The notes under the pieces are model-generated. The model saw only the letters and a list, made by a program, of their open reading frames with translations, was not told the DNA's origin and did not search any database. Positions 54,212 to 62,404 of a DNA stretch of 64,000 nt are shown in pieces (positions within the stretch are counted from its first letter, which is position 1; every line of letters starts with the position of its first letter). Source of the DNA: Cylindrospermum stagnale PCC 7417 (GTDB lineage Bacteria > Cyanobacteriota > Cyanobacteriia > Cyanobacteriales > Nostocaceae); contig NC_019757.1 in the NCBI RefSeq assembly GCF_000317535.1, positions 6,041,501-6,105,500 of the forward strand, given 5' to 3'. Made by a program: the position numbers and the translations under genes.

Positions 54212-54565
54212 ATGGGTTTATACGACAAAATCGGCGGACAAGCCACAGTTGAAAAAGTCGTTGATGCTTTCCACAAAAACATCATGGCAGACAGCAGCGT
54301 TAGCGGTTACTTTGCTAAAACAGATATGGCAAAACAACGCGCTCATCAAATTGCTTTCTTCTCTCAAATTCTGGAAGGACCAAGCCAATACGCTGGTCGT
54401 CCAATGGAAAAAACCCACACAGGCATGAAGCTACAACAAGCTCAGTTTGATACTATCGTCAAACACTTGAACGCTGCAATGACCGCAAGTGGTGTATCAT
54501 CTGCTGACGCAGCCGCTGCAATGGCTAACGTTGAAGCTTTGAAAGGCTCTATTTTAGGCAAGTAG
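54212..54565 (+). CDS. glbN: Cyanoglobin (truncated hemoglobin group I)
   Basis: A 117-residue globin. YDKIGGQATVEKVVDAFHKN and MADSSVSGYFAKTDMAKQRA carry the distal region, and YAGRPMEKTHTGMKLQQAQF the proximal His. AGGAGA precedes the ATG. A glbN gene between nifU and nifH is known from Nostoc commune, where the protein binds oxygen tightly at the membrane. It may buffer oxygen for nitrogenase or respiration. Confidence 0.95.
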   Translation: MGLYDKIGGQATVEKVVDAFHKNIMADSSVSGYFAKTDMAKQRAHQIAFFSQILEGPSQYAGRPMEKTHTGMKLQQAQFDTIVKHLNAAMTASGVSSADAAAAMANVEALKGSILGK

Positions 54566-55930: not shown

Positions 55931-56872
55931 ATGACTCCTCCAGACAACAAGAAAATCATCGAAGAAAGAAAAGAACTAGTTAAAGAAGTTCTCAAAGCTT
56001 ATCCCGAAAAAGCTGCTAAAAAGCGGGAAAAGCACCTCAATGTATATGAAGAAGGTAAGGCTGACTGCGGCGTTAAATCTAACATCAAATCTTTACCAGG
56101 TGTGATGACCGCTCGTGGTTGTGCTTACGCAGGTTCCAAGGGTGTGGTTTGGGGTCCTATTAAGGACATGATTCACATCAGCCACGGGCCTGTAGGTTGC
56201 GGTTACTGGTCTTGGTCTGGTCGTCGTAACTACTACATCGGTACCACAGGTGTTGATACCTTTGGTACCATGCACTTCACCTCTGACTTCCAAGAACGGG
56301 ACATCGTTTTTGGTGGTGACAAGAAACTAGTCAAATTGATTCAAGAACTAGACGATCTTTTCCCTTTAAACCGTGGTGTTTCCATTCAATCTGAATGTCC
56401 CATCGGTCTAATTGGAGATGACATCGAAGCTGTTGCTAGAAAGACCTCCAAGGAAATTGGTAAGCCAGTTGTTCCCGTTCGTTGCGAAGGCTTCCGGGGT
56501 GTTTCCCAGTCTTTGGGTCACCACATCGCTAACGACATGGTTCGTGACTGGGTTTTCACCAGAGCAGACCAAGCGAAGAAAGATGGTACACTCAAGTTTG
56601 AAGGTACCCCCTATGATGTAGCCATTATCGGTGACTACAACATCGGTGGTGATGCTTGGGCTAGCCGCATCCTGTTAGAAGAAATCGGCTTGCGCGTAGT
56701 CGCTCAGTGGTCTGGTGATGGCACCATCAACGAAATGTTGATGACCCCCAACGTGAAGATGAACCTCATCCACTGTTACCGCTCGATGAACTACATCAGC
56801 CGTCACATGGAAGAAGCTTATGGTATACCCTGTACAGAATATGATTTAATGTGTTTTGAACCCACGATTTAG
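55931..56872 (+). pseudogene. nifD: nifD, 5' part only, interrupted by a DNA element
   Basis: A 313-codon frame. The authentic sequence runs to about residue 303 and then changes from ...EEAYGIP(W) to [13 protein letters not shown] and stops; the last codons are element sequence. The P-cluster Cys are present ([29 protein letters not shown]), as is the FeMo-co Cys in [11 protein letters not shown]. The C-terminal 170-odd residues, with the FeMo-co His, are missing. The gene is normally about 480-500 codons. It is presumably restored by site-specific excision in heterocysts, since the recombinase gene lies just beyond. It is not dead in the usual sense. Confidence 0.93.
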
Positions 56873-56920
56873 TCCAGGCTTGACTTTGCTCAATTCAAAC
56901 ATTGTTCCAAATGGACTAAA
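56868..56920. repeat. 9-bp inverted repeat beside the nifD junction
   Basis: TTTAGTCCA (56868-56876) and TGGACTAAA (56912-56920) are perfect inverted repeats spanning the end of the truncated nifD frame and the recombinase leader. They could be arm or core sites for the recombinase, or a transcription terminator. The true junction is near 56830. Confidence 0.5.
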
Positions 56921-56943
56921 TTTTAAGCCAAATTTAAGACACA

Positions 56944-58347
56944 ATGGAATTTAGCAATCAGGACGTTTTCGGCGATTTCACACCGCCAGCATCTACCGAT
57001 GGCAGCTATCTAGGGAATCGGGAACAGATGAAAGCGACTCGGCAGCATTTAGAGAAGAAGTTTGAGAAAGGTTTGGCTGAGGTTAAGGCTCGGTTGAAGG
57101 CAGGTAAGGTTAAGGTCGGGCTTGTGGTGGCTGGGGATACTATTCAATTGCAGGCATCGCTACCAATTAAGCCTGGGGACACCGACACCAAGGGGACTGG
57201 GGACAAGCAATACAAAATCTCGCTCAACATCCCTGCAAACTTGGATGGACTGAGGACGGCTGAGGAGGAAGCACAGGAGTTAGGCAGGCTGATCGCCCGT
57301 AAGCAGTTTGAGTGGAATGATAAATATTTGGGTAAACTCGCCAAGGTGGAGAACGGGCCACAAACTGTTGGTGAGATATTAGAGGAGTTTGAAGTTGAAT
57401 ATTTTAAAACTCACAAGTTGACAGAAAAAAGTAAGCATACTTTCTCTTATTACAAAGACCATTTAAAAAGACTGGTTGGCACTGACACGCTATTAAGTCA
57501 GGTTTCTATAGATAAAAAGATTGCAGAGATAACTAATGATTCTGCAAAATATCACGCTGTTAAAAGTTTGAAGGTATTAAGGTCAACTCTCAACCTGACT
57601 AGCTTTAGCCTGGATGGAATCAAGAGTACACAGCCCAAGAGTCAGGTTAGAGATATCCCCAGTGATGAAGATATAGTCAGGTATTATGAATCGTTTCACA
57701 ATTATTCGTTGTCTAGAAGTCTAACAATTAAGAAGGATTGCATAGATAGCTGGAAGATGTGGGAATGGGTCTATGGGATGCTTGCAACCTATGGCTTACG
57801 ACCGAGAGAACTGTTTGTTAATCCGGGGATTGATTGGTGGTTAAATCCTGAGAATAAGGATAATACTTGGAAGGTTCACCCAGATACTAAGACAGGATAT
57901 AGAGAAGCCTTACCGCTCCATCCTGAATGGGTGGAGTTGTTTGATTTAAAGAATCCCGAAGCTTTGCAGATGTTGAGATCGCAAACTTACGACAGAACGA
58001 GTTTTACGGAAATCAACACGATTCGGGTCAACTGTTCGTCATGGTTTAGGCGGGTAAAGATTCCGTTTACTCCCTATGATTTGCGTCACGCCTGGGCAAT
58101 TAGAGCGCACATGATGGGTGTGCCGATTAAGGCGGCGGCTGATAATTTGGGGCATTCAGTGGAGATTCACACTGAAATTTATCAGAAGTGGTTCAGTTTG
58201 GAGAACCGGAAGAAGGTAATTAGGCAGGCGGTGGATAAGAAGGATGATATTGAGGCGTTGAAAGAAGAGAACGCACGTTTAAGGGCTGAGGTTGAGCGAC
58301 TTAAACATGCGTTGGCACGGAAGCAAATTTCAGAGGTTCTGTTGTAA
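56944..58347 (+). CDS. XisA/XisC-family site-specific tyrosine recombinase
   Basis: A 467-residue protein. The N-terminal third (LPIKPGDTDTKGTGDKQY, NIPANLDGLRTAEEEAQELG and RKQFEWNDKYLG) and the catalytic region (YGLRPRELFVNPGIDWWL, DLRHAWAIRAHMMG, AADNLGHSVEIHTEIYQKWF) match the excisases of heterocyst elements. The Arg, His-x-x-Arg, His and Tyr (in IYQKWF) catalytic residues are present. The C-terminus is a coiled coil. It should excise the element from nifD during heterocyst development. It starts 72 bp after the truncated nifD frame. I cannot tell xisA from xisC by eye. Confidence 0.9.
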   Translation: MEFSNQDVFGDFTPPASTDGSYLGNREQMKATRQHLEKKFEKGLAEVKARLKAGKVKVGLVVAGDTIQLQASLPIKPGDTDTKGTGDKQYKISLNIPANLDGLRTAEEEAQELGRLIARKQFEWNDKYLGKLAKVENGPQTVGEILEEFEVEYFKTHKLTEKSKHTFSYYKDHLKRLVGTDTLLSQVSIDKKIAEITNDSAKYHAVKSLKVLRSTLNLTSFSLDGIKSTQPKSQVRDIPSDEDIVRYYESFHNYSLSRSLTIKKDCIDSWKMWEWVYGMLATYGLRPRELFVNPGIDWWLNPENKDNTWKVHPDTKTGYREALPLHPEWVELFDLKNPEALQMLRSQTYDRTSFTEINTIRVNCSSWFRRVKIPFTPYDLRHAWAIRAHMMGVPIKAAADNLGHSVEIHTEIYQKWFSLENRKKVIRQAVDKKDDIEALKEENARLRAEVERLKHALARKQISEVLL

Positions 58348-58944
58348 AACTTCTTTGGCGGTCAGGCGTAATTCTGGGAAGGTTGGAGATACTATAAAAT
58401 CGTCTCCCCTAAACTGGGTTACTTGATATTCACCTTCAGTCAAGGAATAAATTGATAGTGTGGGTAACTTGGGATTGCCGATAAATCTTCTGCCGCCTAC
58501 TCCCAGGTAATCTATGATCCAATATTCAGGAATTCCTATGGCTTCATAGTCACTAACTTTATTCCCGTAATCAACGCCCCAATTAGAGCTAACAACTTCG
58601 GCGACGAATGGAACTGATGCGGCTTGGCTGACGGTTGACTGTTTCTGCCACAAGGGTTCATTGGCCAAGTTGTCTAGATTTAACAGCAGGATGTCGGGGC
58701 AATAAGCTGTTTCCGTTGCTGGGGTTTTAACAAAGGCATTTTTAGAGATGACGTAAGGCCGGTTTCTCCTAACTATCTCTGCTGTTAAGTTGCGACTTAG
58801 TAGGGCGATGATGAGTTCATGTTCCCCTAATGGCTGGTTCATTTCGACAATTGCTCCGTTGTGCAGTTCGTAGCGTAATCCTGTGTCGGGGTACCATTCT
58901 GCAAATTGTTCAAAGGTTACTGGTTTTGGTAAAGCTTGAACCAT
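58330..58944 (-). CDS. Uma2 family endonuclease-like protein
   Basis: A 204-residue protein. VTFEQFAEWYPDTGLRYELH, GAIVEMNQPLG, YCPDILLLNLDNL and FVAEVVSSNWGVDYGNKVSD are Uma2/DUF820 motifs. It overlaps the recombinase 3' end by 18 bp in convergent orientation. This family is often carried by mobile elements of cyanobacteria. Confidence 0.88.
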   Translation of the reverse strand: MVQALPKPVTFEQFAEWYPDTGLRYELHNGAIVEMNQPLGEHELIIALLSRNLTAEIVRRNRPYVISKNAFVKTPATETAYCPDILLLNLDNLANEPLWQKQSTVSQAASVPFVAEVVSSNWGVDYGNKVSDYEAIGIPEYWIIDYLGVGGRRFIGNPKLPTLSIYSLTEGEYQVTQFRGDDFIVSPTFPELRLTAKEVLQQNL

Positions 58945-59409: not shown

Positions 59410-59859
59410 TTAATCAATTAGTGGCGGCGTTGGACAATCTTCTGTTGGTACAAAGTTGAAACGTCTGGCACTCCAGAAGTATTTACTTTTAAATTTCTGC
59501 TGATCCGCCTCATTCATCAAAGGATAGGTGTTGGCTATGGCAAGGTCTTTGACGATGGATATTGCGTCCCGAACACCAATATCGATTTTAAGTTCTAGTG
59601 CAAGGCTGATTTCTGACCCCGTGATTTTTACGCTCTCAAAATTTGACACACCCGCCTGGGGTGTGTGAAAAATCTCAGAGTTTGACACACTATTTTTTAG
59701 GGTGTGAGAAAGATCGTCTGCTTTTGCTTTTGTCTCCGGTAACTGTTTCCATTTATCCAATCGGGAGCCAAAAGCCTTACACCACTTTGTAGCGTTGATA
59801 TAACCGTCGCCGCGCTGGGCATCTTGCACCAATTCACTAAACTTTTCTATTTCTGACAT
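59410..59859 (-). CDS. KilA-N-like domain protein
   Basis: A 149-residue protein. RGDGYINATKWCKAFGSRLD, followed by KWKQLPETKA, matches the KilA-N/APSES DNA-binding domain, common in large DNA phages and plasmids. The C-terminal half is probably helical (SEISLALELKIDIGVRDAIS). Flanked on both sides by the 239-bp inverted repeats, with its own terminator, it forms a cassette that could be flipped as a unit. Confidence 0.75.
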   Translation of the reverse strand: MSEIEKFSELVQDAQRGDGYINATKWCKAFGSRLDKWKQLPETKAKADDLSHTLKNSVSNSEIFHTPQAGVSNFESVKITGSEISLALELKIDIGVRDAISIVKDLAIANTYPLMNEADQQKFKSKYFWSARRFNFVPTEDCPTPPLID

Positions 59860-61597: not shown

Positions 61598-62404
61598 CTA
61601 GGTTTCAGAATCCACAGGTCTAACAACCAGTAATTGAGTCAGCGCGAATTTACCCGTTACAAAACCGTTACGCCTATTTGGGTCAACGACAGGAACAAGT
61701 ACCATCCGTTCCTCTAGCTCCACTGTTGCCCCTAGTGCTAGTGGTTTGTCAATTACTGCGTCGCTGGCTGGCTTGTCTAGTTTTGGTTTGTGAGTTTTGT
61801 AGCGGGATAGTGTCGAGTCAAAGTCACCCGTCCAAATATCGTCTTTTATCTCATCCCTAAGCGATCGCGCCTTCTCGCGGTTAGCCGGGGTATCTTCTAG
61901 CCCAGTGCGTAGAAAGAACTGTTTATCAAATCCCTTCACCCTAAACCGCAGGGCCAACAGGTTAGACCGTGAGTCGATACTTATCCATTTATCCTCTTTT
62001 GTCCGCTGGTCAATCTCTTGCTCATCTTGAGCGAGGGGAGTTACTTCACTGGCATCAACAGTAATTGGTTCCTCTACTTCACTGGCATCAGCGGTAATTG
62101 GTTCTTCTACTTCACTGGTGAGGGGAGTCACTTCACTGGCATCAGCAGTAATTGGTTCCTCTACTTCACTGGCAAGGGGAGTAATGGGGTTAGCTTTACT
62201 GACAGTTTTGAGTTTCAGGCACTCTCTTAAGTCACCTAGCAACTCTTTAGCCTGGTAGTACTCCATTGGTAGGATACCTCTAGGAGATTTCTTGACGACA
62301 TAGTCAAAGATGTCATCCCAGCTATGAACAATTTCTTCTATTCGTTTAAGCCTGGACAGTCCATCTTTAATTGAATCGGCGGTTTCTTCAGGTACTGACA
62401 GCAT
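61598..62404 (-). CDS. Stand-alone integrase arm-binding-domain protein
   Basis: A 268-residue protein. Residues 1-70 are helical. A repeated acidic linker follows (SEVEEPITADASEV three times). Then (about 140-210) comes ISIDSRSNLLALRFRVKGFD, QFFLRTGLEDTPANREKARS and EIKDDIWTGDFDSTLSRYK. This last part is the N-terminal arm DNA-binding domain of phage-type tyrosine integrases (DUF3596-like). No catalytic domain follows; a different beta-rich tail with VVDPNRRNGFVTGKFALTQL ends the protein. It could bind the element's ends as a directionality or repression factor. Confidence 0.65.
   Translation of the reverse strand: MLSVPEETADSIKDGLSRLKRIEEIVHSWDDIFDYVVKKSPRGILPMEYYQAKELLGDLRECLKLKTVSKANPITPLASEVEEPITADASEVTPLTSEVEEPITADASEVEEPITVDASEVTPLAQDEQEIDQRTKEDKWISIDSRSNLLALRFRVKGFDKQFFLRTGLEDTPANREKARSLRDEIKDDIWTGDFDSTLSRYKTHKPKLDKPASDAVIDKPLALGATVELEERMVLVPVVDPNRRNGFVTGKFALTQLLVVRPVDSET

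Follow-up and report, generated by a model that had tools for sequence, protein, structure and literature searches.

A nifD-895 type element in Cylindrospermum stagnale PCC 7417, and tandem repeats proposed as arm sites of XisA-family recombinases

The nifD gene of Cylindrospermum stagnale PCC 7417 breaks off inside its coding region and is followed almost at once by a recombinase gene, which raises the questions of what kind of insertion lies here, whether the gene can be made whole, and how the recombinase would recognise the correct ends. The locus was analysed in a stretch of 64,000 nt (contig NC_019757.1, positions 6,041,501 to 6,105,500, forward strand), called the window; positions on the contig itself carry the prefix C2. 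The truncated nifD open reading frame (ORF; window 55931-56872, + strand) encodes 313 aa, of which P300 is the last normal residue, followed by 13 foreign codons and TAG. A gene for a XisA-type tyrosine recombinase starts 71 bp past this stop and reads with nifD. A preliminary description of the same DNA had the arrangement right (normal NifD, foreign codons and a recombinase just after the stop), but placed the last normal residue at about 303, with ten foreign codons and a distance of 72 bp.

The missing parts of nifD were located by a whole-genome nifD model search. They are found on the same contig, to the right of the window, at C2:6106943 and C2:6116725. The element at nifD nt 896 has a length of 8,617 bp, with one TACCCTG at C2:6098326 and another at C2:6106943, and the window covers its left 7.2 kb. 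The nifD 3′ part and a short direct repeat at both junctions, for which the preliminary description pointed to the right-hand sequence, are thus both present. A second element of 9,321 bp (C2:6107404-6116725) is bounded by TACTCCG repeats at nifD nt 1357, the classical Anabaena site. When the flanks of both elements were joined by script, a single open NifD frame of 502 aa was obtained. Excision of the 8,617-bp element alone is insufficient, and the classical-site element must also go to give NifD. The features of the first element are collected in Table 1.

Table 1. Coordinates of nifD and of the element features in the window
Feature	Window position	Strand	Remark
nifD 5′ part (complete to codon 300, plus two bases of codon 301)	55931..56832	+	
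Left 7-bp overlap TACCCTG	56826..56832	+	right copy C2:6106943, would-be window 65443
Element left end, 13-codon tail of truncated NifD	56833..56872	+	
GAATATGATTT	56837-56847		similar to GAGTATAATTT, the nifD sequence that was displaced; read as one half-site of the core
ATTTAGTCCA	56867..56876	+	half of inverted repeat kept in most nifD-895 left ends
TGGACTAAAT	56912..56921	-	other half of ATTTAGTCCA inverted repeat
Proximal arm-like pair TTTAAGCCA-AA-TTTAAGACA, period 11	56922..56941	+	ends 2 bp before recombinase start codon
XisA/XisC-family tyrosine recombinase, 467 aa	56944..58347	+	nifD-895 clade
Uma2-family putative endonuclease	58330..58944	-	cargo
KilA-N domain ORF	59410..59859	-	cargo
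ORF with Arm-DNA-bind_2 domain only	61598..62404	-	cargo; looks like integrase remnant

The nifD model gave seven matches in the genome, with none over the curated cut-off, and no other complete nifD was found. Three of the matches are the nifD pieces, C2:32558 is NifE, C2:6119370 is a NifE-like ORF after nifK, and two are weak. It should be noted that C2:32558-33790, close to where the chromosome record begins, represents a second nifE (over the NCBIfam cut-off) with a NifN-like ORF after it. Between nifU and nifH the window has a small globin-like ORF (54212-54565), presumably cyanoglobin GlbN, with no NCBIfam match at 0.001. In the Arm-DNA-bind_2 ORF inside the element a catalytic domain was not found. 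The classical-site element carries its own recombinase, of 445 aa, which reads against nifD and is about 50% identical to that of the nifD-895 element; a band-7/HflK-like protein and a RecF/OLD-like ATPase are also encoded there.

The 8,617-bp element is of the already described nifD-895 type, with nothing different in site or plan. Its repeat begins at nifD nt 896, where assignment takes 895 ± 1 (± 10 for the variant); an exact direct repeat is present at both ends, and joining restores the frame. The preliminary description implied that the site was new, which does not hold, as position 895 (± 1) is one of four published nifD element variants (Hilton, Meeks and Zehr 2016, PMC4874684). The accessible text of that paper describes six genomes for nifD 895; in four, among them Cylindrospermum stagnale PCC 7417, the recombinase gene opens the element and has the direction of nifD, and the present element is probably the copy listed there. 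The exact repeats were used by those authors only as markers of the element ends, and the terms "arm", "inverted repeat" and "binding site" are absent from the accessible main text (PMC4874684).

Of 192 family genomes, 27 encode a recombinase at least 70% identical to the one described here, and in all 27 it sits just after the nifD break; below these, the best match reaches 59%. The preliminary description allowed for an assembly artefact at the junction; this is ruled out, since the nifD-recombinase junction is also found in the relatives, where 27/27 upstream stretches align. Lengths of the nifD-895 elements range from 1,821 bp (G136) to about 75 kb (G131), so that the recombinase and two ends can be the whole element. 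An apparent in-frame fusion of NifD and recombinase in G136 (a 1088-aa open frame) was rejected: nifD ends at a stop, the recombinase is in another frame, and the element is simply the small one of 1,821 bp. In Dolichospermum sp. UHCC 0259 (L197 2501-4439) the recombinase match spans 1,939 bp for 466 residues, which may point to some 540 bp inserted in the gene. Other nifD pieces in family genomes end near model positions 219-220 and 246-253 (e.g., G068, G095; G122, G071, G021, G097, G132, G088), which are further nifD break sites besides 227, 895 and 1355.

In a quick tree the recombinases of nifD-895 (27 rows), nifD-1355 (23) and nifH (9) form one clade per target. The nifD-895 clade has an SH-aLRT of 100, and the assignment of the present recombinase is by these 27 rows. 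The nifD-895 site also has four recombinases in reverse orientation, which the same quick tree places next to the forward clade, though its support for this is modest (SH-aLRT 87).

The two copies of the overlap are identical over 7 bp in 26/26 genomes (24/24 together with G088 and G164; G099, whose right end was not found, was dropped). The sequence itself differs between genomes: TACCCTG is found in 15, TTCCCTG in 10 and TACCTTG in one. The A/T wobble changes six times on the recombinase tree, on each side, and a phylogenetic pair test of it gave four supported independent pairs (p 0.125). At the flanking positions compared (-20 to -3 and +5 to +13 of CCCTG), agreement between the copies does not exceed what their base composition would give. 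The comparison sets the length of the overlap at 7 bp, and in it both copies change in concert. Identical overlaps are what an exchange inside a 7-bp overlap requires, which suggests that the sites are in use or under selection.

The recombinase protein gave a sub-threshold phage integrase domain only with Pfam, and integrase with PHROGs; in a Foldseek search of the full-length model, XerA and lambda Int are among six matches with E up to 0.001. Membership in the XisA/XisC family is indicated by the blocks GLRPRE, YDLRH, LGH and YQKW, present in 27/27 aligned proteins apart from small substitutions. The catalytic pattern is R..YxxR..H..Y with a tyrosine in place of the box II histidine, a substitution reported for the XisA/XisC-type recombinase in PMC3610870.

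Between recombinases of different targets (231 pairs), mean identity is 69% in the N-terminal domain (residues 56-130), 55% in the catalytic domain and 33% in the core-binding domain. The full-length structure model is of moderate quality (pLDDT 74.5, pTM 0.44), and predicts residues 56-118 as strand-strand-strand-helix. Three strands and a helix is the order given for arm-binding domains (PMC8138268). In a Foldseek search with the N-terminal model nothing matched at E up to 0.001, and the best 50 matches included no recombinase; hmmsearch against PDB sequences gave no arm-binding domain and four unrelated weak matches; and hhalign of the N-terminal domain with the window ORF that has Arm-DNA-bind_2 gave a probability of 0.3%.

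Directly upstream of their recombinase gene, XisA-family elements have a period-11 tandem repeat (here TTTAAGCCAaaTTTAAGACA). It resembles the arm sites of lambda Int and is a putative binding site of the recombinase. A pair matching the left one, TTTAAGCCA-AA-ATTAAGCCA, is found at the right end at -83 (C2:6106862-6106881, outside the window). In the relatives, TTAAGNCA is at -82/-83 in 19/25 nifD-895 right ends, and also in G164; the remaining right ends comprise four with TTAAGNCA near -157 to -168 and two that are degenerate. Of the four occurrences of TAAGNCANNNNTAAGNCA in the Cylindrospermum genome, two are at the ends of the 8,617-bp element, one is at the left end of the classical-site element and the fourth is at another place; the reversed control occurs once.

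A scan of 184 family genomes with TTTAAGNCANATTTAAGNCA gave 27 places, against one for the reversed control, and every one of the 27 is beside a XisA-family gene or a nifD piece. The pattern had been derived from nifD-895 left ends, and these account for 17 of the places; the other 10 are outside that clade, eight of them at nifD-1355 left ends. A looser, shorter pattern gave 64 places over 31 genomes against 49 for the control, 33 of the 64 being at element ends. The word TAAGCCATTGCTAAGTCA is found once each, away from nifD, at G053:C2:1899850, G087:C12:412025 and G088:C1:6724878, probably in a shared gene.

A more general pair, TARGNNANNNNTARGNNA, which was written after the clades had been seen, is present between -250 and +20 of the start in 45 of 70 recombinase genes, and does not occur when the pattern is reversed, on the opposite strand, or far upstream where the sequence reached that far, these being the three controls. 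By clade, it is found in 19/27 nifD-895 forward, 14/22 nifD-1355, 6/9 nifH, 3/3 recombinases without assigned target, 3/5 singles and 0/4 nifD-895 reverse genes, and many of the misses are one base off. The nifH version occurs as an exact pair before the recombinase in all nine nifH elements; at one mismatch its total count is 67 against 66 for the control. Five of the nine also have a one-mismatch nifH pair some 143 bp in from the opposite end, and in 9/9 a pair that agrees in 11 or 12 of its 14 bases is present 142-145 bp in from that end, the stretch scanned for this distal pair having likewise been chosen after related sequences were seen. At further left (distal) ends of nifD-1355 elements the general pair is absent in 19/20. 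A single half-site, TAGCCTAAAT, is kept in 17/21 nifD-1355 left ends; period-11 self-similarity is weak there (5/21 with at least 8 of 9 bases, compared with 4/21 for period 15). Arm-like repeats are thus found at both ends of nifD-895 and nifH elements, and partly in nifD-1355 elements.

Taken together, the locus is with good probability a developmental nifD-895 excision element, for whose recombinase a bivalent, lambda-Int-like mode of action is proposed. In vegetative cells the element splits nifD. By analogy with XisA, excision would take place in heterocysts, where the element's own tyrosine recombinase may join the two 7-bp TACCCTG overlaps and remove an 8.6-kb circle. The joint expected after excision is GGTATACCCTGG, with one TACCCTG kept by the circle, and loss of the second element at the classical site would also be needed before nifD is restored. 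The repeats and the domain conservation suggest that the conserved N-terminal domain may recognise the correct ends by binding tandem arm sites of the TTTARGNYA type (period 11), which lie close to each of them. The core-binding and catalytic domains would act on the element ends, with the diverged core-binding domain setting the target gene. Binding at the proximal arm pair could also limit expression of the recombinase, because this pair touches the start codon. The forward recombinase gene could in addition be read from the nif operon, because no terminator-like site was found after the truncated nifD; upon excision it would remove itself from that operon. A consensus scan of 56700-57100 revealed no NtcA-type site or promoter before the recombinase gene.

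The role of the tandem repeats may be read differently: in an otherwise ordinary nifD-895 element they could be an operator that controls the recombinase gene, recognised either by its own product or by some regulator of the host. The proximal pair is directly before the start codon, or overlaps it, in several clades; neither a sigma-70-like promoter nor a terminator was found between nifD and the gene, so that its control may be unusual; and the fold searches do not confirm an arm-binding domain. Against an operator speak the related pairs that are found, a long way from the recombinase start, at a constant spacing from the opposite end (nifD-895 19/25, some nifD-1355 with 8 ends, nifH 9/9), and the fact that, where both ends could be read, the sites at either end have one and the same orientation with respect to the recombinase gene. 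An operator is thus held to be rather unlikely.

Two further explanations concern the element as a whole. With excision predicted from sequence, the element could in principle be dead and nifD a pseudogene, as the preliminary description allowed in considering an intact nifD elsewhere. This is very improbable: the recombinase is intact, an exact 502-aa NifD reads through two junctions, the overlaps are kept identical in all 26 genomes, and the genome has no other complete nifD. Still more remote, and practically negligible, is a single classical nifD element moved to a new site. Both recombinases do belong to one family, but separate elements occupy both sites in the same genome and each site has its own recombinase clade. 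The preliminary description had offered either a separate insertion in nifD, at a non-classical site and with a recombinase of the XisA/XisC family, which is borne out by the element's own repeat at nt 896 and by the separately occupied classical site, or the same recombinase family with a changed target, which is true of the family as a whole, each target being one clade, and not of the classical element.

With the arm-site interpretation retained, a broader proposal, towards which we lean with less assurance than in the case of the single element, is that the XisA/XisC/XisG heterocyst elements form one bivalent system. The near-constant N-terminal domain would read the arms, exchange of core-binding domains would retarget the recombinase to new codons in nifD, nifH and other genes, and the arms would explain how the right 7-8 bp pair is found. 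The element itself adds little, its site and type being published, and the comparison of relatives matters more. Tandem sites are found near the ends of several element types; if the proposal is true, they explain how one recombinase family came to act on several genes, and they would be of use in detecting elements for which the interrupted gene has not been named. The tandem sites, the co-changing overlap and the conserved N-terminal domain are the part worth following; no description of them was found in the literature searched, which left most subscription papers uncovered. Arm-type or arm-binding sites were likewise not found in heterocyst or xisA papers among the matches listed, most subscription papers being outside that search, and their absence from print is not claimed.

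Among known systems, the closest is the nifD 895 element of Hilton et al., which shares the site (895 ± 1 there, 896 here), the short direct repeat and a tyrosine recombinase at the start reading with nifD (PMC4874684). The classical nifD element with XisA of Anabaena PCC 7120 (nifD 1355) is alike in recombinase family, excision plan and the period-11 tandem before the recombinase gene. It differs in its site (TACTCCG, nt 1357 here), in a recombinase at the right end that reads against nifD, and in a protein only about 50% identical. The proposed arm sites inside the element, with core sites at its ends, are a likeness to lambda Int and Tn916 Int (PMC8138268); unlike in those, neither fold nor sequence searches linked the N-terminal domain of the recombinase to a solved arm-binding domain. 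XisA does not occur in the accessible text of that tyrosine recombinase classification (PMC8138268). The nifH1 element of Nodularia spumigena CCY9414, with XisG, has a XisA/XisC-type recombinase with the same tyrosine for the catalytic histidine, and is likely the same variant as the nifH elements compared here. It differs from the nifD element in gene and repeat, and its excision is reported as shown (PMC3610870), that of the present element being predicted. The 8-bp repeat of the Nodularia element occurs 111 times in the genome, and how the recombinase picks the right one is called an open question by its authors (PMC3610870). Arm sites of the kind proposed here could provide an answer.
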